This document shows, in pieces, positions 294-52,861 of a stretch of 64,000 bases of DNA. Source of the DNA: Gemmatimonadota bacterium (GTDB taxonomy: Bacteria; JAAXHH01); assembly GCA_009838645.1 (NCBI GenBank), contig VXRC01000004.1:62001-126000 (forward strand), written 5' to 3'. Made by a program: the position numbers and the translations under genes. The notes beneath the pieces are model-generated. The model saw nothing but the letters and a program-made list of their open reading frames with translations, was not told the origin of the DNA and did no database searches. Within the stretch, counting starts at the first letter, position 1; every line of letters begins with the position of its first letter.

Positions 294-864
294 AACGTTT
301 TTCTCCTACTTGACCTTCCGGAATCCCGCGGTCAGCCTGGCCGGCCTGAGTGGCCTGGTCGGCCAGTACGGCCTGAGTGGCCTGGTTGGCCAGTACGGCC
401 TGAGTGGCCTGGTCGGCCAGTACGGCTTGGTCGGCCCGGGCAGCCGCATCCGCGGAATAGACCTGTTCCTTTTCCCGCATCACTTTGCGCTGCGAAGCGG
501 TGTGGTGGTCATATCCCAGCAGGTGCAGGCACCCATGGACCACGAGCCGGTGCAACTCGTCGTCCAGGGACACGTGATGACGGGCGGCCTGGTCCCGGGC
601 CCGGTCGACGGATACGTACACGTCGCCCAGGGTTTCTCCTTCGGATCCGGGATCGTCGTCCATTCCGAACGACAGCACGTCCGTCGCGCGATCCAGATGG
701 CGGTACTTGTGATTCAACTTCCGGATATAGGGGTCATCGACCAGTATCACGGTCACGGCCGCACGATCCCGGCCTTCGCCCCAGAGTACCCGGCAGACTG
801 CGGTCCACATCGCCTCGCGCGGGATGTCCGGCGCGGGCAGGACGGTCTCGATCTCGATATTCAA
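286..864 (-). CDS. ybeY: Endoribonuclease YbeY with a repeat-built C-terminal tail
   Basis: A 192-residue zinc-dependent single-strand endoribonuclease, known in the family to act in 16S rRNA 3'-end maturation and ribosome quality control. The zinc site HGCLHLLGYDH and the conserved DVLSF segment are present. The family normally ends about 150 residues in, shortly after the zinc motif. Here about 45 extra residues follow, built from a nine-residue repeat containing ADQATQA, which comes from the 27-bp DNA repeat at 343-423. The gene lies 18 nt downstream of phoH and overlaps the next gene, so all three are probably co-transcribed. The core function is secure; the role of the tail is unknown. 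Confidence 0.95.
   Translation of the reverse strand: MNIEIETVLPAPDIPREAMWTAVCRVLWGEGRDRAAVTVILVDDPYIRKLNHKYRHLDRATDVLSFGMDDDPGSEGETLGDVYVSVDRARDQAARHHVSLDDELHRLVVHGCLHLLGYDHHTASQRKVMREKEQVYSADAAARADQAVLADQATQAVLANQATQAVLADQATQAGQADRGIPEGQVGEKRCG
343..436. repeat. 27-bp tandem repeat (3 copies plus partial) inside ybeY
   Basis: Copies at 343-369, 370-396 and 397-423, then a partial copy. Each 27-bp unit is itself three related 9-mers (for example ggcctggtc). The copies differ at very few positions and keep the ybeY reading frame. Confidence 0.95.
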
Positions 865-882
865 GTGTCGTCGCGGGTGGAA

Positions 883-1848
883 TTACGGGTTTTCATGGCG
901 TTCATAGGCCTTGATGATGTCCTGGACGAGCCGGTGCCTGACCACGTCCGTCTCCGTCAGGTACACGAAGGAGATCCCGCGGATGTCCGCGAGCACTTCC
1001 TGCACGTGCACCAGTCCGGAAACCTTTTCCTCGGGCAAGTCGATCTGGGTGATGTCCCCCGTGATGATCGCCTTGGAGTTCGCGCCCAGGCGGGTCAGGA
1101 ACATCTTCATCTGCGCGGTCGTCGTGTTCTGGGCTTCGTCGAGTATGACGAAGGCGTTGTTCAGCGTACGGCCGCGCATGTACGCCATGGCGATGATTTC
1201 TATGGTCCCGTCTTCGATGAGCCGCCCGGCCTTGTGGTTCGGGATCATGTCGTGCAGCGCGTCGTAGAGCGGCTTCAGGTACGGGTCCACTTTTTCCCGC
1301 GGGTCGCCGGGCAGAAAGCCGAGACTCTCACCCGCTTCAACGGCCGGCCGCGCCAGCACGATCCGGTCGACTTCCCCGTGGCGGAGGGCCGAGATGGCCA
1401 TGGCGACGGCCAGGTAGGTCTTCCCCGTGCCCGCGGGGCCGATGGAGAAGACGATATCGCACTTGCGGACCTGGTCCACGTAATTCTGCTGATTGGGACT
1501 CCGTGCCTGGATCCGTTCCCGCCGGGAGAGCACGTCGATGGACTCGCCGTACCCCGATCCCTGGCCTTCGTCGCTTTTCGTCCCGGTGCGTGTCGCCCGG
1601 ATGATGTCGTCCACTTCCTTCGTGCGGCCCTGCTGGACGGACTTGATCATCTCGCGCAGCACACGGGTGATCTGCCTTACCTCTTCCGCCTTGCCCGTGA
1701 TCACGACCTCTTCGCCCCGGGCGGTGATTTTGGCGTCGAATTCGCTTTCGATGGCGCGCAGCCTGGAGTCAAACTGGCCGTAGAGCGCGAGGGGATCGAT
1801 GCCCTTGGCCGACAGGCGTTGCGTAACCGTGTTTTTCAATGATGGCAT
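883..1848 (-). CDS. phoH: PhoH family ATPase (PhoH/YbeZ)
   Basis: A 321-residue PhoH-type P-loop protein with a KH-like N-terminal region (about 1-80) and an NTPase domain. Walker A is GPAGTGKT (137-144), Walker B is VILDEAQN (234-241), and the family signature TGDITQIDLP follows. YbeZ proteins are RNA-related ATPases that work with YbeY, encoded directly downstream here. The chosen ATG lies about 85 nt after the transcription start predicted from the promoter at 1941-1969. No strong Shine-Dalgarno sequence is visible before this start, so a slightly different start cannot be excluded. Confidence 0.95.
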   Translation of the reverse strand: MPSLKNTVTQRLSAKGIDPLALYGQFDSRLRAIESEFDAKITARGEEVVITGKAEEVRQITRVLREMIKSVQQGRTKEVDDIIRATRTGTKSDEGQGSGYGESIDVLSRRERIQARSPNQQNYVDQVRKCDIVFSIGPAGTGKTYLAVAMAISALRHGEVDRIVLARPAVEAGESLGFLPGDPREKVDPYLKPLYDALHDMIPNHKAGRLIEDGTIEIIAMAYMRGRTLNNAFVILDEAQNTTTAQMKMFLTRLGANSKAIITGDITQIDLPEEKVSGLVHVQEVLADIRGISFVYLTETDVVRHRLVQDIIKAYERHENP

Positions 1849-1940
1849 ATATTGGAAGGTCGATGCTTGTACGGTGCGATTCGCCGGCCTGTTCCGATTG
1901 TCCGGTCAGGCCGCGCTTTCGCCACGTTTTCCGTAAGTAA

Positions 1941-1969
1941 AATCTAACGTTAAAGCCGGTTCGTGTCAA
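1941..1969 (-). promoter_or_regulatory. Sigma-70-type promoter for phoH-ybeY-corC
   Basis: Read on the minus strand: TTGACA (1969-1964), 17-bp spacer, TAGATT (1946-1941). The -35 box overlaps the stop codon of the DUF402 gene. Predicted transcription starts near 1933. Confidence 0.7.
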
Positions 1970-2485: not shown

Positions 2486-3013
2486 CTACGCGATCCGTTC
2501 GAGGACGTCGCGGATCTCCGTGACGAGTGGGCCGTTTCCGTTCTGCCGGTACCAGGACCGGATGCGCGGGTAGATGTCCTCCATGGGGATCCTGCCCTTG
2601 TTGTCCCGCATGATCGCCTGGCACGCCTCGGGACGCGGTCCCCACCTGGCCAGTTCGTTCCGGTCGGCGTCCATGAAGACCAGGTAGGGAATGGCCTTCG
2701 AGCCGTCGGTGAGATAGCGGTCCATGATGTCCAGGTTCTCGTCCCGGCGGAAGATGCGGTACGCGATGGCCGGGCTGCCCTCCAGCATGCGGATGATGGG
2801 CGGGAGGCTCTGTACCACGTCGCCGCACCAGTCCTCCGCGAGGATCAGCACCTTCACGGGTGTTTCGATGGCGGCGAAGAAACCGGCGTCCTCCCCTTCT
2901 AAAGTGAATTTGTCGTAATTATCATGGAATCGTTCGAGATTCTTCTCGCTGTTCCTCATGTAGTCGTCCCACAGGAATCCCGAGGCGAATCGTTCTTCGG
3001 AAACTACGGACAT
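2486..3013 (-). CDS. Thioredoxin-fold protein (Thioredoxin_9 type)
   Basis: A 175-residue cytosolic protein starting MSVVSEERF. The ATG at 3013 is preceded by CTGGAGACGCC; the open frame extends further upstream only into the repeat-rich gap. The segment LAEDWCGDVVQSLP aligns with the thioredoxin active-site helix, but only the first active-site Cys is kept (WCGDV), as in the Thioredoxin_9 family. A cis-Pro-type segment (AIPYLVFMD) follows. The family lacks a defined substrate and is often called general thioredoxin family protein. Next gene downstream is the DUF402 protein, 7 nt away. Confidence 0.75.
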   Translation of the reverse strand: MSVVSEERFASGFLWDDYMRNSEKNLERFHDNYDKFTLEGEDAGFFAAIETPVKVLILAEDWCGDVVQSLPPIIRMLEGSPAIAYRIFRRDENLDIMDRYLTDGSKAIPYLVFMDADRNELARWGPRPEACQAIMRDNKGRIPMEDIYPRIRSWYRQNGNGPLVTEIRDVLERIA

Positions 3014-3035
3014 GGCGTCTCCAGGCTGTTTCGAG

Positions 3036-3106
3036 GTTGACTTGGACGGGTTGACTTGGACGGGTTGGCTGGACCGGACCGGTTGACGGGACCGGACGGT
3101 CAGGCG
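3036..3106. repeat. Intergenic 14-bp and related tandem repeats
   Basis: Two exact 14-bp copies (gttgacttggacgg, 3036-3049 and 3050-3063) followed by degenerate copies with ggaccgg cores. They fill most of the gap between the nitroreductase and thioredoxin-like genes. Confidence 0.85.
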
Positions 3107-3701: not shown

Positions 3702-3953
3702 CTACTCACGGATGGACTCTTCCACCTGGATCGGCTCCACCTGGATCAGCTCGTCCTCACGCGATGCGCTGGTCAGCCTGGTCTGCCTGGTCTGCATGGT
3801 CTGCCCGGACAGCCCGGTCAGCACCGAGCCGCCGTGAGCGCAGCTTCCGCATCCCTTCCGGTCCCGGGAGGTGAACTGCCGGGTGAAGGTGCGCAAGACA
3901 AACGCGGCCGCGACGCCCACGATTATAGCGACGAACAGGGTTTGAATGTCCAT
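3702..3953 (-). CDS. FeoB-associated Cys-rich membrane protein
   Basis: An 83-residue small protein with one N-terminal membrane helix (about residues 5-22) and a GCGSC motif soon after it. This is the layout of the FeoB-associated Cys-rich family, which stands in for FeoC in many genomes. It follows feoB with an 88-nt gap, as expected. The C-terminal 40 residues are not conserved in type: they come from a 9-bp repeat (3769-3824) and a 15-bp repeat near 3723-3751. The Cys cluster may bind iron or sense redox; this is inferred from family and context. Confidence 0.75.
   Translation of the reverse strand: MDIQTLFVAIIVGVAAAFVLRTFTRQFTSRDRKGCGSCAHGGSVLTGLSGQTMQTRQTRLTSASREDELIQVEPIQVEESIRE
3723..3826. 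repeat. 9-bp and 15-bp tandem repeats in the FeoB-associated gene
   Basis: Forward-strand 9-mers such as ctggtctgc repeat across 3769-3824, next to a duplicated cacctggatc segment (3723-3751). Both stay in frame with the minus-strand gene. Confidence 0.85.
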
Positions 3954-3983
3954 GATAGCAAGATAATGGCGGACGGGTCAAAT

Positions 3984-4041
3984 GCCAAGCGGTCCGACGG
4001 CTGCCAGGTGGTCCGGCGACTGTCAGGCGGTCCGACGGCGG
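3984..4041. repeat. Degenerate ggtccg repeats between feoB and its Cys-rich partner
   Basis: Several copies of a gcggtccgacggc-like unit separated by related sequence fill most of the 88-nt gap. Confidence 0.7.
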
Positions 4042-6333
4042 TTATCCGTACCCCAGGAGCAATCCCCCCTGGTAGACGACCAGGGACCCCACGTAGGCCA
4101 GGGCCGTCATGTACAGGACCATGACGATGGGCCACTTCCAGCCGTTGGTCTCCCGTTTCACGATGGCTACCGTGGCCATGCACTGGCAGGCCAGCGCGAA
4201 AAACACCATGAGCGATACGGCGACCAGCGGCGTATAGACCCGTTCGCCCGTCGCGGGATCCACCTCGCTTCGCAGCGAGGACCTCAGATCGACCGAGGTC
4301 TCATCGGCCTCCTCCACGTTGTATATCGTGGCCATGGTGCTGACCAGCACTTCCCGGGCGACAAAGGAGGTGATCAGGCCGATGCCCACCTTCCAGTCGA
4401 ACCCGAGCGGCTCGATGGCCGGTTCGATCAGCTGGCCGAGCTGGCCGGCGTAGCTCTGCTGTATGCGTGCCCTGGACGACAGGTCGTCATATGCGTCGGG
4501 TTGCGGATAGGACGCCAGGAACCAGAGGACGACTGATATGGCGAGGATGATCTGGCCCGCCTCCGTCACGAAGACCCTGGCCCGTTCGAACATCTGCAGG
4601 AGCACCCACTTCAGGGAGGGCCGCCGGTAGGGCGGCAGTTCCATGACGAAACTCGTGGGAACGGCATCCCTCATGAAAAACCGCTTGAACACCAGTGCGG
4701 CGCCGATGGCGACGACGATCCCGAAAATGTACATGGAGAACAGCATAAGCCCCTGCAGCGTGAACACGCCCAGAATCGTCATGGACGGGAAGAACGCGCC
4801 GATCAACAGGATGTACACGGGCAGGCGGGCGCTGCAACTCATCAGCGGCGCGATCATGATGGTGATGAGACGGTCCTTCCAGTTCTTGATCGTTCGGGTC
4901 GCCATGATGCCGGGAATCGCACAGGCAAAGGACGAAAGCAGCGGCATGACCGAATGGCCGGACAGTCCCATGCTCTTCATGAACCGGTCCATGATGAAGG
5001 CGACGCGGGCCATGTAGCCCGTATCCTCGAGCAGGGCCAGGAAGAAGAAGAGGAAGAGGATCTGCGGGAGGAAGACCAGCACGGCGCCCACGCCGGCGAT
5101 GACGCCGTCCACCAGCAGGTCCCGCAGCATGCCGGCGGGCAGGAACTGGTAGACGAAGGCGCCCAGGGCGGCGATCCCGTCCTCGATGAGCGTCATGGGC
5201 GCTTCGGCCCAGGAGAATATGGACTGGAAGACCAGCGCGAACACGGCCAGGACGATGACCGGTCCGGCAATCCGGTGGGTGAATGCGCGGTCCAGCCGGA
5301 CGCTCAGGCTGTCCTGGACATCCCGGTCCTCCCGAACGACCCTGGAATAGAGATCGTCGATCTGGTCATACCGCAGGATGGTCTCCAGCATCCGCCAGGG
5401 AACCTGCAACTCGTCGAGCCTGCCCCGCGTCTGCTCCACGATGCGTTTCAGGTCTTCCTTGCAGGAGGGGTCCTGGCGGCCGACCATCCACGTCTGCAGC
5501 GCCTGGTCGCTCGAAGTCACGCGCAACGCTTCAGAGGTCTGCGCCACCTCGTTCAGGTTCGTATGTTCTCCGAACCACGCCGCCGCGGGTGCGAGCGCCT
5601 CGTCGAGCAAACCGCCCAGCAGCCGCCTCCGCGGAAACCGTTCGGCAAAGGAAACCCTGGGCGATGGCGGGGCCGGCCTGGTCGTATCGGTCGAATCGGC
5701 CTCGGCATCTTCGGTCGAACCGGCCGGCCGGGCAACTCCGGCCGACGTGTCCTCAGCCTCTCCGGCCGGCCGGGCATCCCGATCCACCGGACCGATCTGG
5801 TCGAACATCATCCGCCGCAGTTCGTCTATGCCCTGTTGGCGGGAAGCGACCACCGGAACGATCGGTACCTGCAACTGTTCGGACAGGGCGTCCAGGTCGA
5901 TGTGGACGCCGCTGCTGACGGCGTTGTCCATCATGTTCATGGCCACGGCGACGGGGATGCCGAGGTCGATGAGCTGGGTGACCAGGTAGAGGTTCCGGTT
6001 GAGGTTCGAGGCGTCCGCCACGACCACGATGAGGCGGATGTCCAGGTCCTCTTCCGCCTCCCCGATCAGCACCTCCCGTGCGATGGAATCGTCGAGGGAT
6101 TTCGGGGTAAGGCTGTACATCCCCGGCATGTCGTGCAGGCGAAGCGTAGCGCCGTCCGGCCCCGTCACGATGCCCGTCTTCTTCTCAACGGTCACGCCGG
6201 GATAGTTGCCCGTTTTCTGACGAAGCCCGGTCAACGAATTGAAAACGGACGTCTTGCCGGTGTTCGGGTTGCCGACGAGGAGCACGTCGATGACGGATCT
6301 GCGGGTTTCGGAAGTCCCGGTGGTTTCGGTCAT
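4042..6333 (-). CDS. feoB: Ferrous iron transport GTPase FeoB
   Basis: A 763-residue inner-membrane Fe(II) transporter. The G domain has G1 GNPNTGKT (21-28), G3 DMPG (68-71) and G4 NMMD (133-136). It is followed by a helical domain and a polytopic membrane region with conserved GYMARVAFIMDR and ACAIPGIMATR segments. Residues about 184-225, between the G domain and the rest, are a Pro/Ala/Asp-rich linker encoded by repetitive ggccggccggg-type DNA. The ATG at 6333 overlaps the stop of a 22-codon relic ORF (ATATGA), suggesting coupled translation from pepSY. The Cys-rich partner follows. Confidence 0.97.
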   Translation of the reverse strand: MTETTGTSETRRSVIDVLLVGNPNTGKTSVFNSLTGLRQKTGNYPGVTVEKKTGIVTGPDGATLRLHDMPGMYSLTPKSLDDSIAREVLIGEAEEDLDIRLIVVVADASNLNRNLYLVTQLIDLGIPVAVAMNMMDNAVSSGVHIDLDALSEQLQVPIVPVVASRQQGIDELRRMMFDQIGPVDRDARPAGEAEDTSAGVARPAGSTEDAEADSTDTTRPAPPSPRVSFAERFPRRRLLGGLLDEALAPAAAWFGEHTNLNEVAQTSEALRVTSSDQALQTWMVGRQDPSCKEDLKRIVEQTRGRLDELQVPWRMLETILRYDQIDDLYSRVVREDRDVQDSLSVRLDRAFTHRIAGPVIVLAVFALVFQSIFSWAEAPMTLIEDGIAALGAFVYQFLPAGMLRDLLVDGVIAGVGAVLVFLPQILFLFFFLALLEDTGYMARVAFIMDRFMKSMGLSGHSVMPLLSSFACAIPGIMATRTIKNWKDRLITIMIAPLMSCSARLPVYILLIGAFFPSMTILGVFTLQGLMLFSMYIFGIVVAIGAALVFKRFFMRDAVPTSFVMELPPYRRPSLKWVLLQMFERARVFVTEAGQIILAISVVLWFLASYPQPDAYDDLSSRARIQQSYAGQLGQLIEPAIEPLGFDWKVGIGLITSFVAREVLVSTMATIYNVEEADETSVDLRSSLRSEVDPATGERVYTPLVAVSLMVFFALACQCMATVAIVKRETNGWKWPIVMVLYMTALAYVGSLVVYQGGLLLGYG
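5655..5790. repeat. Repetitive linker DNA inside feoB
   Basis: Degenerate repeats with ggccggccgggca and ggtcgaa cores encode the low-complexity linker between the FeoB G domain and the helical and membrane parts. Confidence 0.7.
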
Positions 6334-8951: not shown

Positions 8952-11258
8952 ATGACGAACACGATCCCTTTCACGGAACTTTCGGAGAAGCTCAAGGGCA
9001 CCGACCTGCCGGATACGCTCATCCGGGATCATCTCGACCGGATGGAGCCGGCCTACTTCGAGCGTTACGAGCCCGGAGTGGTCCGGCGCCATATCGAAAT
9101 GATCAACCGGCTGGGACCGGTCAACGCCGCGGAGATCGATGTAGAGTTCCTGGACGATGCCACGTGGCGGCTTACCGTCGTGGCTTTCGACAACCTGTCG
9201 GTAATCTCGATCCTTTCGGGCCTCCTGGCGTCTAATGGACTGAGCATACGGCGGGGAGACGTGTTCACCTACGCCGACGCGTCGCCGGCGGTTGATGGGC
9301 GCAAACGGTCCCTGCGGTCGAGACGGCGGCGCCGCGCAAGGCCGGGCACGCCGGCAGCGCCGCCGGACATCACCTCGGCGTCGCTGAGGACGCAGCGGAA
9401 AATCGTAGATGTCTTCCGCGTAGGCGCGTCGTCGGAGAAGCCTCCTGACTGGTCCGCCATTACGCGGGAAATCAAGGATGCCATGCACAGCCTGCGGATG
9501 AACAGCGCGGGAGCGCCGCAGCGAAGGATCAACGAGCGCGTCGTGGACTATCTCCGTCACGAGGAAGGCGCGGAGCGCTCCTCCATGTTCCCGGTGCGCG
9601 TGGCGATCGACAACGACACCGGGACCGGGGCGACCCGCCTCGATATCACGGGCCAGGACACCCCGGCGTTCCTGTATGCCCTTTCAACCGCCCTGGCGCT
9701 GCGCGACATCAACATACAAAGGATCGATATCGCGGCCGCCGGAGCCGAGGTGCAGGACACGCTCGAAGTGACCGACCGGCGAGGAGACAAGATTACCGAC
9801 CCGAGGAAACTCCATGAACTGCGGTTCGTGATCACCCTCATCAAGCAGTTTACCCATCTGCTGACCCGGGCGCCGAATCCCGCCCAGGCCCTGGAACACT
9901 TCAACCAGTTGATCGACCAGGTCCTGGCCAACGTACCACCCGGCCGGGCGATGGAGGAGATGTTCGACCAACTGGAGAAGCAGGAAGTGATCAGCGCGAT
10001 GGCAACACTCTTCGGCACGAGCGATTTCCTGTGGAAGGACTTTCTCAGGATGCAGTACAAGAACCTGTTCCCCGTGCTTCAGGACATCAAAGTGGTGGGT
10101 ATCGTAAGGTCGCGGGAACAGATGGAAGGCGAACTGGCCGCTCGGTTGTCGAAAGTCGGAAGTTACGCCCGCCGCAAGGAGTTGCTGAACCGGTACAAGG
10201 ACAAGGAGATGCTCCGGATCAGCATGCGCCAGATCCTGGAGAAGAAGCAGGACATCCATGCCTTTTCCCGCGAACTCACCACGCTGGCGGAGGTAGTCCT
10301 CGAGTCCGCGTACGACATCTGCGACCAGGAGCAGCGCCGGCAGTACGGCGAGCCCACGCTGCCCTCCGGCGAACCCTGCGTGTTCAGCATCTGCGCACTT
10401 GGAAAATGCGGCGGCCGGGAACTGGGTTGGGCCTCGGACATCGAACTGATGTTCGTCTACGCTGGACAAGGCAGTACGAGCGGCCCCCACGTCGTGTTGA
10501 ATTCGGAGTACTACGAACGGCTCGTGCGCATGATCTGCAGTACCATCGAATCCCGGAGAGAAGGCCTGTTCGAGATCGACCTCCGGCTCCGGCCCTACGG
10601 CGAAAAAGGCGCTCTGGCCTCCTCCCTGGAGAAGTTCAACGCGTATTTCAACGAAAAGGGCGGCGCCCTGCCCTACGAGCGCCATGCGCTGATCAAGCTG
10701 CGCGCCATAGGGGGCGATCCGGTTCTGGGTGGGGACGTCGAGGCCGCCCGCGACGCCTTCGTGTACCACGAAGCCCCGGTCGAAGGTCGGTCGTGGACCC
10801 ATCTTCGCGAGCGGCAGAACGACGAACTGGTCGAAACCGGCGCCATCAACGTCAAATACAGTTACGGCGGACTGATCGACATCGAGTACTTTGTGCAGGA
10901 CCTGCAGATCCTCTACGGCGCCCGGAACGACTCCGTTCGCGGACCGAACACACTGGAGGCCATGGAAGTCCTCAACCGGTCCGGATTCCTTTCAGACGAA
11001 GAGCGGGGCATGCTGGACCGGGCATACCGGTTCCTCGTCCGGCTGATCAACGCCCTTCGCATGGTACGCGGCAACGCCCGGGACCTCGTCCTTCCGGACT
11101 GGTCTTCACAGGAGTTTCTGTTCCTTGCCCGCCGCCTGGGATACGAGGAGGGAGACGGCGCGGGACCCGGCGAACGACTGCGACGGGACATTGAACGAAA
11201 CATGGAATGGGCGGCCAGGGCGCTGAGGACCCGTTTCGTCCACAAGCTGTTCGATTGA
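8952..11258 (+). CDS. ACT-ACT-GlnE-type nucleotidyltransferase fusion
   Basis: A 768-residue protein. Residues about 70-110 form one ACT domain and about 214-295 a second, very like the C-terminal ACT repeats of the uridylyltransferase GlnD. From about 300 it resembles glutamine synthetase adenylyltransferase (GlnE): ALGKCGGRELGWASDIEL (482-499) is the nucleotidyltransferase core, and DLRLRPYGEKGALASSLE follows. Classical GlnE is about 950 residues with two such catalytic halves; here there is one. It may modify glutamine synthetase or another target under amino-acid control. An in-frame TGA at 8928 limits the start. tamB follows after 25 nt. Confidence 0.8.
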   Translation: MTNTIPFTELSEKLKGTDLPDTLIRDHLDRMEPAYFERYEPGVVRRHIEMINRLGPVNAAEIDVEFLDDATWRLTVVAFDNLSVISILSGLLASNGLSIRRGDVFTYADASPAVDGRKRSLRSRRRRRARPGTPAAPPDITSASLRTQRKIVDVFRVGASSEKPPDWSAITREIKDAMHSLRMNSAGAPQRRINERVVDYLRHEEGAERSSMFPVRVAIDNDTGTGATRLDITGQDTPAFLYALSTALALRDINIQRIDIAAAGAEVQDTLEVTDRRGDKITDPRKLHELRFVITLIKQFTHLLTRAPNPAQALEHFNQLIDQVLANVPPGRAMEEMFDQLEKQEVISAMATLFGTSDFLWKDFLRMQYKNLFPVLQDIKVVGIVRSREQMEGELAARLSKVGSYARRKELLNRYKDKEMLRISMRQILEKKQDIHAFSRELTTLAEVVLESAYDICDQEQRRQYGEPTLPSGEPCVFSICALGKCGGRELGWASDIELMFVYAGQGSTSGPHVVLNSEYYERLVRMICSTIESRREGLFEIDLRLRPYGEKGALASSLEKFNAYFNEKGGALPYERHALIKLRAIGGDPVLGGDVEAARDAFVYHEAPVEGRSWTHLRERQNDELVETGAINVKYSYGGLIDIEYFVQDLQILYGARNDSVRGPNTLEAMEVLNRSGFLSDEERGMLDRAYRFLVRLINALRMVRGNARDLVLPDWSSQEFLFLARRLGYEEGDGAGPGERLRRDIERNMEWAARALRTRFVHKLFD

Positions 11259-11283: not shown

Positions 11284-14200
11284 ATGAATCTACGGCTGAA
11301 CATATGGACCATGGGACTGGGCCTGACCGCCGCGTTGACGCTGGCAGCGAGCCTGGCTGTCCTCGTCCTGCTGGGAACCGGCTGGGGCAATGACCAGGTC
11401 CGCCGCGCCGTGGTGCGGACCGTCCAGGACCGGCTCAACGGACAGGTAACGATCGAACGCGTCGAAACCGGCTTGCGGACGCACCTGGCGATGCGGGGCG
11501 TATCCTTGCGCCTGGAGGACAGACATGGCGGCAGGGAGGTCGCGGGAGCGGACGAAATCAGAATAGACTTCAACGTCTGGGACGCCGCGGTGGGCGATGC
11601 GCCGTTCTACAGCGTCGGGATCGACGGATTCCGCATGGCCTATATCGAAGACGCCGCCGGCAGCGGGATGAATTCCCTGGATCTGCTGTTTGAAGGCCCG
11701 TCGCAGGACGTGGAAGCGTCGCAGGACGTGGAAGCGTCGCAGGACGTGGAAGCGGATGGGGGAACGTCCGGCCTGCCCTTCGATCTGCGCGACCTTCGGA
11801 TCCGGAACGGCACGTTCCGCTATTTCGATCCCAGGGATTCCACGGCGGTGAGCGCAGGGGAAGTCGGTTTCATCGGCTCCGTGCTCCGGCCGTTCACGGT
11901 GGAAGGCGCGATCGACGCGGGGCACGTGGCTTACCGTATTGCAGGTTATGAAGACGCGGCAACGAATATGCGCGCGGACGTGTACTTCGAAGGGGACGAC
12001 CTTACGGTTCACGACCTGACCATGGAATCCGCCCACGGCCCCCCGATCAGATACCACGTGACCGGCGAGATATCGACCGCGGACGAGAACCCGGCCACGC
12101 TGGATTTCGCCGCGAACGGACAAGTCGGCGCCATACTGCGGATCATCGGTTTCGAAAACACCATGCCGGGGATCTTCACCATGACCGGGTCGCTGCGCAA
12201 CAGCCTGTCCGATCCGGCCATCGAGGCCAGGTTCACGTCGCCGGTGGTACGATCGGATTACGGCGCGTTCAACCTGGCCGCGGTGGATATGGACTATGCG
12301 AGGAACGTGCTCACGGTCAACCGGTTCCGGGGCAGGCATGAGGCCGGATGGATATCGGGACGGGGCCTGCTCGATTTCAGCGGTGAATCTACCGGATACC
12401 GCCTGCAGCTGGAGTCACCCGGGATCGCGCTCCCCGCGTTGCCGACGGTCCTCGTCGGTACCGGGAGCGAACTTGAGGGCGAGGTGGAGTTGGCCTTCGA
12501 AATGGAAGGCGACGGCTTCGACGATGCGCCCCGCCGGGCCGATCTGAGCGCTTCTTCCGCCCTGGTGAGCATAAACGGCCTGCCGTTGCGGGAGGCAACG
12601 GCAACGGCCGCGTACCGGCGCGGACTGTTGCGGGCCGAGCTCCGGGAAGCTTCTTTCCGGGCCGTCACCGAAGGCCGCCTCGAGACGGACGGGAACATCC
12701 AGCTGACCGGTTCGGTCGACGTGCAAGACGTCGGCAGGCTGCCGCCGCCGCTGGAATACGCAAAGCTTCGCGGTACGGCTGACCTGGATCTCTACCTGCT
12801 GGGTTCGCTTCGGCGTCCGACCGTCCGGCTGGGTGGCTGGGTCAGCGGCCTGGCCTATGGCGATGTCCTCATCGGCGAAACGAAAGTCGAAGGTTTCCTG
12901 GACGAACGACGCAACCTGACGATTAATGCCGTGCTGGACAGGCTGGAGTTCCGGGCCAGGACGAACCTGGCCGGCGACCGGGCTGTTTCCGGATACTTCA
13001 ACGTGCATGACCTCAGGCTCGCGGACTACCTCCAAAGCGAATCCTGGTGGGGGCTGGATGCCATCCTTCACATGCGCGGCGAGATTACCGGCACCATACA
13101 ACAGCCCTCCGTAACCGGGAAGGGCACCGTCCGGAACCTGGCGATTCACAACGAAGACCTGGGCGATACCGATCTTGAAATGACGATCGACACGGACCGC
13201 CTGGCCTTCACCCTGACCCGGTCGCCGGGTCCCTCCGTATACGCGGAGGGATCTCTCGAATTGACCGGACAGTACCCCTACGATCTGCGGATCGATCTGC
13301 TGCAGACTTCGCTGTCTCCCCTCCTCTCCATACTCTCCAAGAGACCGATAGTAGGCGGTGCCGGCCGGTTCAGCGGGAACATCCATGCCGAAGGACTGGC
13401 CGGGTATCCGGACCTTTCCACGATAACGGTCTCCCTCGATTCACTGGACGTGATGATGAACGACCGGGAACTGCGTTCCGAGGCCCCCTCCACCGTGAAA
13501 CTGGAGAACCAGGTCATTACCGTGGACGATTTCAGGCTGACGGGTGACTACGGCCACGTAACCGTCAACGGTACGGCGAGTCTCGCCGCGGACGGACCGG
13601 TCGAAATTGAAACCGTACTGGAACGCGTGCAACTGGAGTTCTTCTCTCCTTTCCTGGTGTCGGTCGGCACGTTCAGCGGCGCCATGGACGGCGTGATCTC
13701 CCTGGGGGGCACTCCGGAGGATCCCAGGATCAACAGCCTGCTGACCGTTTCGAACGTAAATTACGAGATAGGAGGCAGGACCAACCTGCTGGGCACCGTG
13801 ACCGGCATGGTGGTATACAGGAACCGGTTACTCACGGTTCCTTCGCTTTCCGTGCAGACGCCGCTGGGATTGTCGGAGATCAACCTGACCTATCCCATCG
13901 ACCTGCGCTGGGGACCGGCGGACCAGCCGGATGCGGATCCGCCCGATGAAAGATACACGGCGTCCCTGGTTGTGGACAACCTGGCCGTGGCGCCGCTTAG
14001 GGAGTTCTTCGAGCTGGTTCCCGCCGACCTCGACGGTTACATCAGGGGCAGGATCGACGTGAACGGTTCGGTCCGTGACCGCAGGGACGTGGCGGGGGTC
14101 GTGGAGTTGGATTCGCTAAAACTGTTCGGTCTCCAGAACGAGTTGGTCAACACGAATCCCGTCAGGCTGCATTTCGACGGGGTCCACATCCATGTGGATT

Positions 14201-20284: not shown

Positions 20285-21029
20285 CGGCTCGATGCACTTT
20301 CTCCATGACCTGCCGGACCGCACGGACCGCGCGGCCGGGATCGGTGTTTCCGGTGATGTAACCGCCGACGACCACGATGTCCGGGCCGTGCGGTATCAGC
20401 CGCTCGATCAAGGTGGGATCCAGACCGCCCGCGACGGCCAGCCCCGCCCGTTCGACCACTGCGCCGACCTGGCCGATGCCTTCCAGGGTCCGCGCTGAAT
20501 CGCCCGGTCCGCCCGGTCCGCCCGGTCCGCCCGGTTCTCCCGGTCCGCCCGGTCCGCTTGGTCCGCCCGGCCTGCTCGGTCCGCCTGGTCCGCCCTGCCC
20601 CCGGGCGTCGAAAGCCGTGTGCATACAGATGAAATCCAGCCCGGACCGATCCAGCCTGCGGGCCAGGGAGACCGCCTCGTCCACGTCGCGGGCGGTGATC
20701 AGGTCGGCCATGACCCGGCCGCCGGACCGCTTCGCCCGTTCGCCCGCTTCCCGAAGCGTGGCCGGGTGGGCCGTACCGAGCACGGTTACGATGTCCGCCC
20801 CCGCATCGAAGGCAAGGCCCGCTTCCACGGCGCCGGCATCCGCGATCTTGAGGTCCGCCAGGATTTTCTTGTCGGGATAGTCCCGACTGATCCCGGCGAT
20901 GATGTCGACCCCGTAACGGATCAGCAGGGGCGTTCCGAGCTCGATGATGTCCACGTCGCCGGCGGTCTCGTCCAACAGGCGGCGAACCGTATCCGCGTGC
21001 GGCGTGTCCAGGGCGAGTTGGAGCAGCAT
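20277..21029 (-). CDS. hxlA: 3-hexulose-6-phosphate synthase (OMPDC fold) with a collagen-like insert
   Basis: About 250 residues of the orotidine-5'-phosphate decarboxylase superfamily. The catalytic D-x-K-x-x-D motif is DLKIAD (59-64); MADLITA and VVVGGYITG bind phosphate in relatives. The family condenses formaldehyde with ribulose-5-phosphate (HPS) or decarboxylates 3-keto-gulonate-6-phosphate; the hxlB neighbour favours HPS. Residues about 145-177 are a Gly-Pro-Gly insertion after HTAFDARG, made by 9-bp repeats, in a loop where homologues have only a few residues. A GTG at 21044 is an alternative start. Confidence 0.85.
   Translation of the reverse strand: MLLQLALDTPHADTVRRLLDETAGDVDIIELGTPLLIRYGVDIIAGISRDYPDKKILADLKIADAGAVEAGLAFDAGADIVTVLGTAHPATLREAGERAKRSGGRVMADLITARDVDEAVSLARRLDRSGLDFICMHTAFDARGQGGPGGPSRPGGPSGPGGPGEPGGPGGPGGPGDSARTLEGIGQVGAVVERAGLAVAGGLDPTLIERLIPHGPDIVVVGGYITGNTDPGRAVRAVRQVMEKVHRADG
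20503..20597. repeat. 9-bp tandem repeat in hxlA
   Basis: About ten copies of the 9-mer cccggtccg and close variants. On the minus strand they encode Gly-Gly-Pro units; on the plus strand the same DNA reads as a spurious collagen-like Gly-Pro-Pro frame. Confidence 0.97.
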
Positions 21030-34761: not shown

Positions 34762-35658
34762 TTAACTGGATCCCGATGTCTGGTTGCCGTCCTGGTTCTC
34801 CGTTTTCGCCTGGCCCGCCTGGTCCGCCTGGTCCACATGGTCCGCATGGTCCGGTGGTTTCTCCGGCGCGCGCGTCACGATGACCTTGGCCGCGCGCAGG
34901 ACCTTTTCATTAAGCGTGTAGCCCTTTTCTACCACGTTGATCACCGTTTCGGCCGGGTGTTCATCATTTTCTACGGCCATGACGGCTTCGTGCCGCGTGG
35001 GATCGAAGGGCGTTCCCTCCGCGGCGATCTCCTTCATCCCCGCCTTCTCCAGTTTCTCCAGGAATTGCTGCCGGATCATCTCGAAACCCTGGGCGAAGGA
35101 CCTGGTCTCGTCGGAGGTCTGCGGAGCCTGGAGGGCCCTTTCGATGTTGTCGAGGATGGGCAGCAGCTCGGTGATCAGCGATTCGCCCGCGTTCTTTACC
35201 AGCGCGGTGAACTCGCGGCCGGTCCGTTTCTTGTAGTTGTCGAACTCGGCGGCCAGACGGACCAGGCGGTCCTTGTAAAGCAGAACCTCCTCGGCCAGCC
35301 TGGCCTGTTCATCTTCCTCAGCATCGACCGCGGCCCCATCCGATGGCCCCCCGGAGTCCGCTTCGGCGCCGGACGCGGCGCCGGAAGTGGCCCCACCCGA
35401 CTGATCCTCCGCCCCGGCCGCTGGTCCGTTACTCGGTTCGGCGCTATGGTCCGCCCCGGCCGCCGGTCCATTTCCCGCCCCGGCGTCATGGTCCGGTCCG
35501 GCCGCGGAATCGGCCCCGGCCGCGGAATCGGCCCCGGCCGCGGAATCGGCCCCGGCCCCGGGGTCGCTATCCTCCTCCGTGGACCCGGTCACTTCGGCTG
35601 CGTCACCGGGCGACGCCGCAGACTCGAAAACGGCTTCCTCTTCCTTGCCCATAGTCAC
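34762..35658 (-). CDS. grpE: Nucleotide exchange factor GrpE with repeat-rich ends
   Basis: A 298-residue GrpE. The core (about 115-275) has the coiled coil and the family end LRAAKVIVT. About 115 N-terminal residues are Ala/Gly/Asp-rich, including three exact DSAAGA units from an 18-bp repeat, far longer than the usual acidic N-terminus. The last 30 residues contain [12 protein letters not shown], from 9-bp repeats. AGGAGG lies 6 nt before the GTG at 35658; ATG at 35652 is the alternative. GrpE releases ADP from DnaK. Confidence 0.94.
34806..34862. repeat. 9-bp repeat in the 3' end of grpE
   Basis: Copies of cctggtccg and catggtccg 9-mers in frame, encoding the Asp/Gln/Ala tail. Confidence 0.9.
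35502..35555. repeat. 18-bp tandem repeat, three exact copies, in grpE
   Basis: ccgcggaatcggccccgg at 35502, 35520 and 35538; related degenerate copies extend left to about 35420. Confidence 0.95.
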
Positions 35659-35699: not shown

Positions 35700-35815
35700 C
35701 CTTTTTCGGTTCCGCCCGTTCCGCGAGTTCTGCCCGTTCGATCCGCTTTACCTGTTCTGCCGGTTCTGCAATGTCCGTTCGTTCTGCAATGTCTGCCAGG
35801 TAACGCCCGGACGCG
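35700..35815. repeat. Degenerate ttctgcccg repeats between hrcA and grpE
   Basis: The 234-bp gap is dominated by 9-mer-like units (cggttctgc, cgttctgca, ctgcccgtt). No gene is seen. Confidence 0.8.
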
Positions 35816-39917: not shown

Positions 39918-39990
39918 CGGTCTAAGCGGCGCCGGCCGGTCAGCCCGGTCGGCCCGGTTCAGATCGGTCCGGTCCGGACAGGCAGGCAAG
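39918..39990. repeat. GGTC-rich repeats upstream of tig
   Basis: Degenerate copies of cggtcggcc and cggtccgg-type units fill the region just before the tig ribosome-binding site. Confidence 0.8.
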
Positions 39991-40016: not shown

Positions 40017-41264
40017 TTGAACTACACGGTTTCCGAACCCAAACCCTGGAAACGCGTCCTGGAGATCGAAGTGCCCTCCGACGCGATTCAGTCCGAACTG
40101 AACGAGGCCTACGCGCGTTACAGTAGAGAGGTGCGCCTTCCCGGGTTCCGCCGGGGCAAGGTTCCCTTGAGCGTGCTCAAGGCGCAACTCGGCAATGAAA
40201 TCCGCGCGGAAGTGCTGGAAAAGAAGATCCCGGAATATCTGAACAGCGCACACGAGCGCGCGGAGATCAAGCCCATCAGCCAACCCGTGATCGAAGAGAT
40301 CGACTTCGACGAGGGGCAGGACCTGAAACTTCGGGCCAGCGTGGAAGTCAAGCCCGCCATCGAACTGAAACAGTATAAGGAACTGCGGGTGACCCGGCGG
40401 ACCGTGAATGTGACGGACGAGGAGGTGGACCAGCGGCTCGAGAGGCTGCGGGAACGCTATGCCAGCGTGGTTCGGATCGACGGGGAAGCGGAGAAGGACC
40501 ACTTCATCCGTGCCGATATTCAGCACGCCGATGCCAGCGGGGTGCCGATCATCGGTCGCAAGGAAGAGAACCAGTTCTTCCAGGTCGGTTCGGGACGGCT
40601 GGGCGAGGGGTTCGATAACCAACTGGCCGGCGTCCGGGCCGACGAGGACCGGACCGTGAAGACCACGCTGCCCTCCGACTACCCCGACGAAAACCTGGCG
40701 GGCCAGGAGGCCTGTTTCATCGTGCGCGTCCACGAAGTGCTGGAAAGGCAGTTGCCGGAAGCGGACGACGATTTCGCCGTGGACATCGGCATGGAGAGCC
40801 TGGACGCCCTGAAGCAGTCTGTCCGCGAGGAAATCGAACGGGAACCGGACCTGGAGCTGCGCAGGGACCTGGTCACGCAGGTCGTGGACGCCCACGACTT
40901 CGAAGTCCCCGAGTCCATGATGACGGCCTTTCTCGACCAGGTCGTAACCGACGCGCGCCGGTCGACGCGGGGCCGGGACGAAGTCGACGAGAACGCCCTT
41001 CGCCAGGAGTACCGCCCAGTGGCGAACAGCCAGATCATGCGCCACCTCATTCTGGACGCCATCGCGGAACAGGAAGGGCTGGAGGTGGACCAGGAGGAGC
41101 TGGACGAGCGGCTGGAGGCCGTCGCGGCAAGGGGACAGGCCTCGATCGACCAGGTCCGCAGGCTCTTCCGTGAGAACGGAAGGCTGGACCGCATCGAAGC
41201 GGATCTGAGGGAAGAGAAAGTCGTTGAATTCCTCGTGCAGCACGCCGACATACAAACGGAGTAG
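40017..41264 (+). CDS. tig: Trigger factor
   Basis: A 415-residue ribosome-bound chaperone and prolyl isomerase. The start is a TTG at 40017: GAAGGGAG lies 9 nt upstream and the product then begins NYTVSEPKPWKRVLEIEVP, the family N-terminus. The ribosome-docking signature is GFRRGKVPL. An FKBP-like domain (about 155-240) and a helical C-terminus follow. The stop codon lies inside a duplicated 21-bp segment. It leads tig-clpP-clpX-lon. Confidence 0.94.
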   Translation: MNYTVSEPKPWKRVLEIEVPSDAIQSELNEAYARYSREVRLPGFRRGKVPLSVLKAQLGNEIRAEVLEKKIPEYLNSAHERAEIKPISQPVIEEIDFDEGQDLKLRASVEVKPAIELKQYKELRVTRRTVNVTDEEVDQRLERLRERYASVVRIDGEAEKDHFIRADIQHADASGVPIIGRKEENQFFQVGSGRLGEGFDNQLAGVRADEDRTVKTTLPSDYPDENLAGQEACFIVRVHEVLERQLPEADDDFAVDIGMESLDALKQSVREEIEREPDLELRRDLVTQVVDAHDFEVPESMMTAFLDQVVTDARRSTRGRDEVDENALRQEYRPVANSQIMRHLILDAIAEQEGLEVDQEELDERLEAVAARGQASIDQVRRLFRENGRLDRIEADLREEKVVEFLVQHADIQTE

Positions 41265-41285
41265 GCCGACATACAAACGGAGTAG
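41244..41285. repeat. 21-bp tandem duplication containing the tig stop codon
   Basis: Two identical 21-bp copies (41244-41264, 41265-41285), each ending in TAG, in the same frame. The second copy is a silent spare end just before the clpP ribosome-binding site. Confidence 0.97.
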
Positions 41286-45707: not shown

Positions 45708-46244
45708 TCAACGGGCCGCTGCCTCCAGATCGGCTACCAAGTCGCCACCGCCCGCGATCTCCAGCGTTCTCCGCGTTCCTGGTCCGATTTCGATATGGAC
45801 CGTTACCGCGTCGGACGGCATGATCTCCGGGAACTTGTCTCCCCATTCGACCAGGCAGACGCACGCGTCCAGGTATTCGTCTAAGCCGAGGTCCAGCACC
45901 GACTCCGGGTCGTCCAGGCGGTAGAGATCGAAGTGGGCCACGAGTACCCGTCCAAGCTGACCAAGCTGGCCAGGCTGACCAGGCTGACCGGGCTGACCGT
46001 AGTATTCGTTCACGAGGGTGAAGGTGGGACTCGTGACCGGTTCCGCGACGCCGAGGCCCGCGCAGATCCCCTGGATGAAACAGGTCTTACCCGCGCCCAG
46101 GTCGCCGGAAACGCGCACCGTGTCCCCCGGCGCCAGCCACGCCGCCAGCCGTTTCCCGACCCGCGCGGTCTGCCCGGGGCCGTCCGTGTCGAAACTGCGC
46201 CGTACGGGCCGGGCCTGCGCGTCCGCATGTATCGAAGCGTTCAA
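45708..46244 (-). CDS. tsaE: tRNA t6A modification ATPase TsaE
   Basis: A 178-residue TsaE. Walker A is GDLGAGKT (47-54). [11 protein letters not shown] (72-82) and HFDLYRL (104-110) are the family's switch and Walker B regions. Between them residues 83-98 are Gly-Gln-Pro repeats from 9-bp DNA repeats, in a loop that is shorter in homologues. The start is a TTG at 46244 overlapping the serS stop (TTGA), with AAGGAA upstream. It works with TsaB and TsaD in t6A37 formation. Confidence 0.9.
45953..46000. repeat. 9-bp repeat in tsaE
   Basis: About five copies of caggctgac-type 9-mers in frame, encoding Gly-Gln-Pro/Leu units. Related sequence lies at 45645-45705 beyond the gene. Confidence 0.93.
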
Positions 46245-47509: not shown

Positions 47510-47664
47510 GATCTCTCCGTGTCCGTGTGCCTGTCGGGTGGGCTGCTGCCCGGGTTTCCATGGTTGTCCTGCCGCGATAAACCACGGTAAAATAGGAAGA
47601 GGTCTCCGCGCCCGGCAAGCAGAAACGAAGCGGCGGCGCCGACCCGCTCCCGTCTGATCATTAC

Positions 47665-47705
47665 GGACGAACCGCCGGACGAACCGGACGAACCGGACGA
47701 ACCGC
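47665..47705. repeat. ccggacgaa 9-bp repeat between serS and the TIGR02757 gene
   Basis: Four contiguous or near-contiguous copies of gaaccggac/gaaccgccg 9-mers in non-coding DNA. Confidence 0.93.
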
Positions 47706-47726
47706 CGGCCGCGCCGCCCGACTCGT

Positions 47727-48603: not shown

Positions 48604-48633
48604 TTGACTTGAATATAATTGACTTGAATATAT
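48604..48633 (+). promoter_or_regulatory. holA promoter region with a 15-bp tandem duplication
   Basis: The unit ttgacttgaatata is repeated (48604 and 48619; last bases differ). It supplies TTGACT boxes, a perfect TATAAT (48614-48619) and a second TATATC (48629-48634), so two overlapping promoter arrangements are possible. Confidence 0.5.
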
Positions 48634-48659
48634 CCGTATGTCGCGATTCCCGTAACCCG

Positions 48660-48716
48660 ATTCGTGCCGGTTCCGCACCGGTCCTGCACTGGGCCTGCAC
48701 CGGTCCTGCCAGGGAC
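48660..48716. repeat. ccggtcctgc repeats upstream of holA
   Basis: Degenerate 9- to 10-mers (ccggttccg, ccggtcctg) in the leader before the holA start. Confidence 0.8.
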
Positions 48717-50764: not shown

Positions 50765-50771
50765 GTGTAAA

Positions 50772-51242
50772 TCAGAATCCGATGCCCCGGTCCGGGTCCG
50801 CGCTAATCCCGGAGAAGGTGATCAACTCGTCCAGGGACAGTTCCATTTCCCGGCCCGAGACGAGACGCTTCGATCGGATGACGACGTTCAGGTGGTTGGG
50901 CAGGTGCGTCTCGTCGAACCCCGTTATCGTCCCGATCTCTTCCTCACGGACGGAGACCGCGTCCCCGCGCAGCAGCAGCCCCGCTTCCGAAACTTCCGCG
51001 AAGCCGATGTAGGCGGCCCGGTCCACCTTCGAACCCGGTCCGGCGTCTTCTTCGTCGGTGCAGATGAGTTCCAGGACATCTCCCCGCCGCACCGCCCGGG
51101 AAAGCTGGGGGATCAGGCTCAGGCCCCGGTCCTTAGCGGTCAGGTCCAGCACGGCGAAAAGGCGCGCCGACAGTTCCGTCTTGCTCGAATAGTGTGCCCG
51201 GTTGACCTTGCCTTCCACGTGAGGATCCCTGGACTCCGCCAT
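50772..51242 (-). CDS. Conserved hypothetical protein (DUF6917-like)
   Basis: A 156-residue soluble protein without signal peptide or membrane segment. Recognisable stretches are RGLSLIPQLSRAVRRGDVLEL, AAYIGFAEVSEAGLLLRGD (partly) and GFDETHLPNHLN. These recall a small family I know as DUF6917, without a defined function; the assignment is from memory and tentative. AAGGA lies 6 nt before the ATG. It is the last gene of thrC-dacB-(this). Confidence 0.55.
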   Translation of the reverse strand: MAESRDPHVEGKVNRAHYSSKTELSARLFAVLDLTAKDRGLSLIPQLSRAVRRGDVLELICTDEEDAGPGSKVDRAAYIGFAEVSEAGLLLRGDAVSVREEEIGTITGFDETHLPNHLNVVIRSKRLVSGREMELSLDELITFSGISADPDRGIGF

Positions 51243-51287
51243 ATCAGGTCCTTCCCGAATAGTGAACCACGCAGCGTTTCACGCGGG

Positions 51288-52861
51288 TCACTTGCGACTG
51301 AATCCGGCCAGCAGGACGCCGATTGCATCCTGTGCCCGGCGCGCCGTCGACGCCGGGCCGACGAAGTTGTTTATCATGATCGAGAAGACCAGGGGCTCGC
51401 CGTCCAGGGTATGGACGTAGCCGCTCAGGCAGCTCACACCGGTCAGGGTGCCGGTCTTCGCCCTGAGATTGCCCATGGCCGCCGTGTCTTTCATCCGGTT
51501 TGCCAGGGTCCCGTCCTCCCCGGCGACGGGCAGCGCCTCCCGGAAGTCGGCGCCGATCAAGGGATCGTGGTACGCCGCCGTAAGCAGCGCCGCGACCTGG
51601 TCGGGCGATACGTAGTTGTACCACGAGAGTCCGGAACCGTCCGCGAACCGGTAGGCGTCGGGGTCCAGGCCGATGTAGTCTGCCAGGACCTGTCGCAGGG
51701 CGGCCAGCCCGTCGGCGGACGAGCCCGGTTCGCCCGTCGTGTGGCGTCCCATGGTCTTGATGAGCAATTCCGCCGTCAGGTTGTGGCTGTACTTGAGCAG
51801 GCGGACCAGGGCTCCGGTCACCGGCGGTGAACGGTAGGTCGCCACCGTCCGGGCGCGGGTCGGCGTGACGCCCCTTCGGACCGTTCCGGTCACGCGTACG
51901 CCGCTGGCCTGCAGCTTGTCCCGGAACAGTTTCCCCGCGTACAGACCGGGCGCTTCGACGGAGCGGAAGTACTCTCGTTCGCCCGCGTCCATGGCGACCC
52001 GGCCGGTTATGGTGATCCGGTTGGACCGCGACGGCCAGTCCCGCTCGATCCTGATCGGTTCGGCGGTAGAGGTATCCCCCGCCGCCGCCGTCAGGGCCTC
52101 CACGATAAAGGTAACGGACGTCGTCGGCGGATCGACCCGGACCGTTACGGGCGCGCCGACGGCGGCCCCGGGCGAAATGCCGATCTTCACGCTGTTTCCG
52201 TTTACCGATAGCGCGTTCAGGGAGGCGGAGTAACTGTACTGTACGTCGTCCCACATCCACCCCTCACCGTAGGGCACCTCGTCCAGGTAGGCGTCGTCGA
52301 CGACGATGTCGCCCGCGATGACCCGTGCGCCGTACGACCCTGATACGAGGTCGGCTACGACACCGGCGAGGCTGTCCAGGTGCGCCGATTCCAGCATGGG
52401 GTCTCCGCGACCGAGTAGGTACAGCGACGTGTGAAGCGTGTCGCTTCCGGCATAGGCGTCACCATCGGCGAAGACGCTCGTCAGGTAGCGGTAGCCGGGG
52501 CCCATGGTCCGCAGGACGCCCATGGCGGTGAACAGCTTGGTATTGGACGCGGGATGGAACAGTCCGCTGGAGTGCCGTGCGAAGAGTACCTGGCCCGTGA
52601 CCGGCGACACGACCTTCACGCCCACGGTCATGGGCGCCAGTTCCGGGTGATCCAGGATCCGGCTTATGTCCTCCGCCAGGCGCCGTTCCGCTCCGGAAGG
52701 CCCCCCGCGGAATTGCAGGGGACCGCCGCAGGCGAGCACGAACAGGACCAGGACGAGTAGCAGGACGCCGGCCGCGGGAGCGGACGGCGCTTTCATGGCG
52801 GCGGCGGTGTGAAAGACGTCCGTGCTGGGAAAGACGTCCGCGCCGAGCGTCGGTTTCGCGC

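Follow-up and report, generated by a model that had tools for sequence, protein, structure and literature searches.

The window analysed here is a stretch of 64,000 nucleotides from a Gemmatimonadota bacterium (JAAXHH01; GenBank assembly GCA_009838645.1, contig VXRC01000004.1, positions 62,001 to 126,000; G000:C4:62001-126000 in our numbering), whose genome comprises 3.81 Mb in 50 contigs. It carries many short tandem arrays, both between genes and inside conserved genes. The strict count required exact matches over 12 or more consecutive nucleotides at one lag of 4-60, each array being assigned one lag, and rows of Tandem Repeats Finder (TRF) were taken at scores of at least 30. The strict count gives 22 exact tandem arrays (34.4 per 100 kb), of which 13 are coding, 8 intergenic, and one lies at a gene edge. 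Ten of them, 8 coding and 2 intergenic, have a unit divisible by nine (9n arrays), and the others have units of 14, 15, 21, 22, 33, 35, 38 or 42 bp. TRF reports 68 rows, 27 of them at scores of at least 50, of which 15 have a 9n period. Head-to-tail copies of this kind far exceed those of shuffled sequence: windows generated by a second-order Markov model of the same DNA contain 0-0.3 runs per lag, whereas the real window has 3 runs with lag 9 and 8 with lag 18. The original prediction, made from the sequence before this analysis, had described such repeats as spread throughout the window, and both counts agree with it.

Arrays inside and between genes

The host genes named in that prediction were recovered, YbeY, TamB, DnaG, GrpE, TsaE and an OMPdecase/HUMPS protein (there called hxlA) by Pfam, and FeoB and MutS2 by NCBIfam. 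Array positions relative to protein domains were obtained by arithmetic. As had been proposed, the coding copies lie in loops, linkers and tails: YbeY has its array in the C-terminal tail, GrpE has arrays in both tails, and those of MutS2, DnaG and FeoB are outside the domain matches. The YbeY array, with a 27-bp (3x9) unit, covers approximately residues 146-174 of 192 (342-426, minus strand); among four relatives, two are shorter by 27 bp, and in the other two the flanks almost adjoin. A small protein with a weak FeoB_associated match (Pfam, below cut-off) contains a 15-bp array (3721-3747, minus strand), longer by 15 and by 30 bp in two relatives, and a degenerate 9-bp array (3769-3823, minus strand) supported by TRF and congener comparison. 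FeoB itself has a 42-bp duplication beyond its G-domain match, at residues 186-204 (5720-5776, minus strand; NCBIfam and congener comparison), and the TamB-type protein an 18-bp array near its N terminus (11699-11754, plus strand; Pfam and congener comparison).

Further along, a 9-bp array coding Gly-Pro-Gly lies beyond the OMPdecase/HUMPS match (20501-20595, minus strand; TRF, Pfam and congener comparison), and a 15-bp array in a protein with no Pfam match (22175-22228, minus strand) is shorter by 15 bp in three relatives. DnaG carries a second Gly-Pro-Gly array of 9-bp units at residues 424-431, beyond the Toprim domain (25328-25348, minus strand), with units that vary by species. The 18-bp array of MutS2 lies between the ATPase core and a Smr-type match (27886-27957, minus strand), a place where two far-clade species have 9-bp arrays of their own. 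In GrpE, the C-terminal tail holds a 9-bp array of the Asp-Gln-Ala type, the unit number of which ranges from approximately 3 to 17 among near-clade species (34807-34853, minus strand), and the N-terminal tail holds 42-bp and 18-bp arrays (35408-35557, minus strand; Pfam and congener comparison). The 9-bp array of TsaE falls within the domain span (45952-45998, minus strand; Pfam and congener comparison) and forms a ladder of 14, 23, 32, 50 and 59 bp among the species. Where the gene at 40017-41264 ends, a 21-bp segment is exactly duplicated across its 3' end (41244-41285, plus strand); this segment is also duplicated in one relative (G005) and single in nine others, and an 18-bp duplication at the N terminus of an S13 peptidase (52811-52840, minus strand) is shorter by 18 bp in two relatives.

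Between genes, 14-bp and 18-bp arrays, the latter found by TRF only, lie upstream of the minus-strand gene at 2486-3013 (3035-3097). A 19-bp array between feoB and a small gene (3983-4039) forms a ladder of 25, 44, 63, 82 and 101 bp, and all eight relatives read differ from the window by multiples of 19, zero included. TRF and congener comparison support a 35-bp array at 31809-31885 and degenerate 9-bp and 18-bp arrays at 35707-35793. Congener comparison supports a 9-bp array with the unit CCGGACGAA at 47664-47708, and 15-bp and 22-bp arrays at 48604-48709. The 15-bp part of this last site, a duplication of TTGACTTGAATATAA at 48604-48632, stands between divergently oriented genes, and promoter spacing could change with its copy number. 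Two other intergenic spots that had been listed proved weak, since TRF finds no array at 8742 and only 2.6 copies at 39936, the array nearest to the listed 39918.

Unit-sized differences between related species

The comparison covered the 12 genomes of the genus (G000-G011, one genome per species, eleven of them additional to that of the window), two other genera of the family (G012 and G013) and a further two genomes from the order (G014 and G015). In a MutS2 scan, the closest relatives were metagenome bins titled Gemmatimonadetes or Candidatus Latescibacterota, with 77-94% identity in the best segment; their isolate names suggest that they probably come from sponges. In 8 of the 11 congeners, a single contig carries the three anchor genes, with their order unchanged. 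In these 11 species, 27 window arrays (six added by hand from TRF) were compared flank to flank, not all sites being found everywhere.

Orthologous arrays differ between congeners by whole units, of 9, 15, 18, 19, 21 or 22 bp, and at many sites the distant congeners have few copies or none. At the TsaE site (45952), the difference in length is a multiple of 9 for nine of ten relatives, while one relative could not be placed. Differences at the DnaG site (25328) are multiples of 9 in all six near relatives; the unit sequences differ there as well, and two far relatives have no array. The GrpE site (34807) behaves similarly in the near clade, where four of six differences are multiples of 9 and all six are multiples of 3. 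Copy number changes in unit steps between close relatives, as in minisatellites subject to slipped-strand mispairing. A shared element sequence, such as a palindromic or mobile insertion of the Rickettsia type, was not found among these arrays, the units of which vary by site and, at some sites, by species. The sequences point to local birth and turnover of the arrays and not to the insertion of an element. Transposon footprints with 9-bp target duplications would not yield units of 14, 15, 19 or 21 bp.

Reading frame and the number nine

Frame and unit length were examined in a primary set composed of the window, 13 other stretches of the same genome (contig C49) and 20 spaced stretches of G006 (contig C1). 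The division into coding and intergenic arrays is based on iterated gene calls, and arrays lying 10-90% inside genes (n = 18 in this set) were excluded from both classes. One of the 13 stretches was moved by 10 kb in order to include a CCGGTC hit, so that the spacing of this sample is not fully even. Loci chosen near motif hits (L022-L028) were excluded from all array and density counts.

Unit lengths divisible by three (3n) are found in 79 of the 81 coding arrays and in 21 of the 59 intergenic ones. The frame is nearly, if not "always", kept as had been predicted, and these counts do not fit phase-variable contingency switching, as far as its frameshift part is concerned. The 9n arrays amount to 42/81 coding and 15/59 intergenic, and a single constant unit size, as in one kind of repeat in PMC8161180, was not found in this set. 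Among coding 3n arrays outside the window, 34 of 66 are 9n (P = 0.002 against one third); the same is true of 34 of 71 coding 3n indels of 6-40 bp (P = 0.008) in three species pairs, which have one short internal tree branch in common. No 9n excess is seen in intergenic indels of 7-40 bp (7/60, P = 0.57). With a looser threshold, coding lags of 9, 12, 15, 18 and 21 occur 32, 20, 24, 35 and 28 times, respectively, and intergenic lags of 8, 9 and 10 occur four times each, with 12 occurrences of lag 14 and 13 of lag 18. The preference for 9 bp belongs chiefly to coding DNA, and it is stronger at the stricter threshold. The earlier description of the units as "mostly" multiples of nine is partly borne out, by coding arrays and indels, but not by the window as a whole (10/22) or by the intergenic indels. 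Thirteen of the 42 coding 9n arrays place a glycine at every third residue. The intergenic units are mostly of 8-22 bp and diverse in sequence, as would be expected of duplication without a master element. Those of the near clade peak at 14 and 18 bp, again with diverse sequences.

Abundance in the genus and outside it

The window has 22.2 coding arrays per 100 kb. The other contig of this genome (13 stretches) has 12.3, the spaced G006 sample (20 stretches) 11.2, a far-clade sample of 20 stretches from G004, G008 and G011 has 7.0, and the sister genera G012 and G013 have 3.7 and 2.3, respectively. The window is possibly denser than the other contig (P = 0.08) and is therefore not a fair sample of its genome. 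The far-clade stretches were taken from contigs of earlier hit lists, at places without a triple CCGGTC, which may slightly depress their lag-9 count. In the stretches orthologous to the window, the coding density is 20.3 in six near species against 10.4 in five far ones. The near clade has 68 coding arrays in 584,540 bp and the sister genera 11 in 363,667 bp, a 3.8-fold difference (P = 2e-6); the far clade also differs from the sister genera (P = 0.03), and near from far (P = 0.03). Intergenic arrays are another matter, with 77, 63 and 47 per 100 kb in the genus outside the window region and 30 and 107 in the two sisters; the intergenic load of the genus is not exceptional. An abundance above that of related genera, which defines clade-specific minisatellites, is seen for coding arrays and not for intergenic density. 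The intergenic arrays of G013 peak at 7 and 8 bp (5 and 11 of 30).

The 9n class is also more frequent in the genus, with 8.0-8.1 arrays per 100 kb against 2.5 in unrelated stretches of at least 0.58 GC. Exact lag-9 arrays number 16 in 660 kb of the near clade, and there are none in the sister genera (409 kb) or in unrelated DNA (870 kb), with P = 3e-8 against the combined 1,279 kb; when only unrelated high-GC stretches are considered (0 in 314 kb), the chance is approximately 0.002, these controls being small and uneven (18 loci, 0-11 arrays each). In the far clade, five coding ones were found in 202,688 bp of window-orthologous stretches and one in 400 kb of other stretches, so that lag 9 characterises the whole genus and not just the near clade.

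Proposed origin of the arrays

The arrays are probably short minisatellites that are turned over by slippage, filtered for frame and for folded cores, and that include a 9-bp sub-class. This reading draws on the unit-sized ladders between species, the scarcity of copies in distant congeners, the frame filtering and the coding excess over the sister genera; slippage as the physical step is what we infer from these sequences. The arrays would begin as tandem duplications, mostly of approximately 8-22 bp, and slipped-strand mispairing at replication would then lengthen and shorten them. Selection would purge out-of-frame changes as well as changes in folded cores, for which reason the survivors would be found in linkers, tails, loops and intergenic DNA. 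The 9-bp sub-class probably reflects, in the main, the tolerance of three-residue repeats in coding loops, together with a GC-rich unit that seeds arrays well. The ladders and the 79 in-frame coding arrays agree with the process postulated from the sequence, in which repeats are actively generated and then filtered for frame. Among the three mechanisms that were then left open, polymerase slippage fits, and an uptake or recombination signal finds no support, its core being at most 1.15 times as frequent as expected.

Several observations weigh against this reading. The intergenic 9n arrays (15/59) exceed one in nine (P = 0.002), and they are beyond the reach of frame selection; nine of the 15 have lag 18, and lag 14 is equally frequent. 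In the near clade, the extra match at two-copy arrays is of 0-2 bp in 12 of 23 and of 4-12 bp in the other 11, so that some births may not be classic slippage between repeats that already existed. This test was made on non-orthologous sets (23 of 35 two-copy arrays being retained in the near set), and extra matches of at most 2 bp are also found in 7 of 9 arrays in the far set and 6 of 12 in the sister set; both homology-poor and homology-rich births of arrays occur, and the genus is not special in this respect. With regard to abundance, the sister genera are lower in GC (0.57 and 0.52), which partially confounds the contrast in coding density, and the intergenic density of G013 (106.7 per 100 kb) is above that of the genus stretches outside the window. 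All arrays together amount to 20.0-21.5 per 100 kb, a modest difference from the 15.6 of unrelated stretches of at least 0.58 GC (0-11 per locus), and some small unrelated samples have denser coding arrays than the genus (24.7 in G038 and 49.4 in G050).

Repair genes

SbcCD, a hairpin nuclease, and RecG, a fork helicase, have roles in repeat stability. Seven repair families (MutS1, RecJ, XseA, Ku, SbcC, SbcD and RecG) were profiled in the 12 genus genomes and in four outgroup genomes. SbcC gives whole-profile matches of 262-336 bits in all four outgroups, below the curated cut-off of 478.5 bits, which only 1 of 14 control genomes passes; no whole-profile match was found in the 12 genus genomes, seven of which have weak matches (at most 41 bits), with a few candidates unscored in several genomes. 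SbcD is above its cut-off in 4/4 outgroups and in 0/12 genus genomes (one weak match), and RecG in 3/4 and 0/12, respectively. MutS1, RecJ and XseA were matched in all 12 genus genomes, and the absences are therefore not due to general incompleteness. In G011, RecG is split across two adjoining frames (G011:C108:656-2564), as if broken or mis-assembled, and in G007 adjoining weak SbcD-like and SbcC-like matches (G007:C39:90805-92198) perhaps represent another nuclease-ATPase pair.

Other losses were considered and rejected. MutS1 is present in 16/16 genomes, 14 of them above cut-off (in G000 the gene is divided between contig ends, and in G005 the match is partial), which speaks against loss of mismatch repair. 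RecJ is likewise found in 16/16 and XseA in 15/16, and duplications by fill-in during non-homologous end joining find no basis in genomes where Ku is matched in 0/16.

The pattern is consistent with hairpin and fork processing having eroded at the level of the genus, although as a lead only, since this is one lineage. According to the explanation built on it, the loss of SbcCD and RecG in the genus let slipped intermediates survive and repeats accumulated. The distribution of the genes between genus and outgroups and the retention of MutS1, RecJ and XseA speak for it, but a single lineage amounts to a single event, and with seven families tested one clade difference could be due to chance. The SbcC contrast is itself softened by outgroup scores below the curated cut-off and by the weak matches in 7/12 genus genomes, and no publication is known to show 9-bp repeats responding to these genes. 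In addition, the far clade lacks the same genes and has fewer coding arrays (7.0 vs 11-12, and 10.4 vs 20.3 per 100 kb in the orthologous stretches), so the loss is not the whole cause. As an account of the arrays, it is rather unlikely.

The GACC core and other explanations

The original prediction gave the units a GGTC/GGTT core. The GGTC part, as GACC on the coding strand, is found in the 9n class, whereas the other arrays mostly lack it and GGTT is not enriched. With the window excluded, GACC occurs in 21 of 34 coding 9n arrays (7/11 at lag 9, 2.1 expected; 14/23 at longer 9n lags, 6.8 expected) and in 1 of 34 other coding arrays (9.8 expected). On the same strand, GGTC itself shows no excess (0/11, 8/23 and 8/34, respectively). 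With the window included, GACC is read in codon phases 0, 1 and 2 in 12, 5 and 8 coding 9n arrays, and one amino-acid pair is therefore no explanation for the core. CGGACC-type units are common among the exact lag-9 arrays, CGGACCGGG being one such 9-bp unit. The genus, and most of all its near clade, thus has a 9-bp sub-class in which many units are of the CGGACC type and often code for Gly-Pro-Gly or Asp-Gln-Ala.

These data bear on a motif-dependent expander acting on the DNA, by which CGGACC-type units would slip by nine regardless of coding, in genes and between them. Its proponents could point to the three codon phases and to the zero lag-9 arrays in sister and unrelated stretches, as well as to the lag-9 runs of at least 11 outside the window, which contain CGGAC or CCGGA in 3/3 intergenic (0.4 expected) and 10/16 coding cases (2.9 expected; two gene-edge arrays, one with and one without the motif, were excluded). 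Against such an expander, intergenic indels have no 9n excess (7/60), intergenic lag 9 merely equals lags 8 and 10 (four each at the looser threshold), and the units fold no better than shuffled ones. This last result also removes a hairpin-stabilised, CAG-like slippage of GGACC units: the 13 lag-9 coding units have a mean z of approximately 0.1 against shuffled units, with 2/13 below -1 on a strand. The expander is an unlikely explanation of the arrays as a whole, although a bias for CGGACC-type 9-bp units at the level of the DNA is possible. The conjunction of both ideas, in which SbcCD and RecG were lost in the stem lineage and a CGGACC-type 9-bp expander then kept remodelling linkers, species by species, in such essential proteins as primase, GrpE, TsaE and YbeY, is improbable.

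A signal for uptake, recombination or segregation, Chi-like or similar to an uptake sequence and spread by selection, would account for a core common to many 9n arrays. It is highly improbable, since the core is at most 1.15 times as frequent as expected genome-wide (CGGACC 1.09, GGACCG 1.15, GACCAG 1.03 and CCGGAC 0.99, the arrays themselves being included in the counts) and 33 of 34 non-9n coding arrays lack it. A dispersed signal motif was rejected, with little or no excess of 6-mer or 9-mer cores. The check by TRF and 9-mer counting suggested with the prediction gave its 68 rows in the window, but no 9-mer with at least 20 occurrences exceeds a z of 3.3. The triple CCGGTC at 9-bp spacing is present in 12/12 genus genomes and 0/47 others; the same pattern with its letters reversed is also frequent in the genus (9/12, and 4/47 others), and the excess is therefore not specific to CCGGTC. 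Finally, an assembly artefact is scarcely credible: the titled relatives are all metagenome bins and G000 looks like one, but most arrays are shorter than approximately 100 bp, keep the frame and recur at the same sites, with unit-sized differences, in separately assembled relatives.

Other features of the window

A 42-bp "repeat" in DnaJ at 34110 was considered as a slippage product and rejected, as it lies within the CXXCXGXG region and the stretch measures 68 bp in all ten relatives found. The open reading frame at 8952-11258 encodes a single protein that matches first the C-terminal part of GlnD-type uridylyltransferases and next the N-terminal part of GlnE-type adenylyltransferases.

Relation to known repeats and significance

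Rickettsia palindromic elements are dispersed palindromic sequences inserted in frame at tolerant sites of essential proteins. The arrays of the genus resemble them in this choice of sites, but they are local tandem duplications with no shared element. The glycine-rich repeats of the mycobacterial PGRS type have units of approximately 9 bp within one protein family; the GC-rich 9-bp coding unit and the Gly-rich tripeptides are similar, whereas the genus arrays are scattered over unrelated housekeeping genes.

The closest parallels are the tandem repeats of constant size, or satellites, of Bacillus, Paenibacillus and other prokaryotes, which two reports describe as taxon-specific and of favoured sizes (PMC8161180; PMC6749651). 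The arrays share with these satellites a taxon-specific abundance, favoured sizes, variable sequence and 3n lengths in genes, and differ in unit size: Bacillus favours 52 or 20-21 nt, and the genus 9 and 18 for coding arrays or 14 and 18 for intergenic ones (PMC8161180; PMC6749651). They are also very short, and several lie in housekeeping proteins. The satellites of Burkholderia mallei and B. pseudomallei are likewise GC-rich, short and present in many places, but have units of 12, 14 or 16 nt derived from microsatellites of 6-8 nt (PMC6749651). The original statement that no named system of this kind was known is thus too strong; the repeats of the genus belong to the described taxon-specific tandem repeats, and what is new is the unit size and the reach into housekeeping proteins. 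In a literature search, no paper on such repeats in this genus was recognised among the matches listed.

The genus-level proliferation of short in-gene repeats, apparently born of slippage, filtered for frame and with a distinct 9-bp sub-class, is real. If slippage and tolerance alone are responsible, it is a well-resolved case of a familiar process. There is also a possible link between the loss of genome-maintenance genes and repeat load, and the point of interest is whether a bias at the level of the DNA, linked to the loss of repair genes, underlies the 9-bp sub-class; an expander arising after such a loss would, if true, be a natural bacterial analogue of repeat-expansion disorders. With 12 congeners at hand, one can trace site by site how in-frame repeats arise, lengthen and disappear in linkers of essential proteins.

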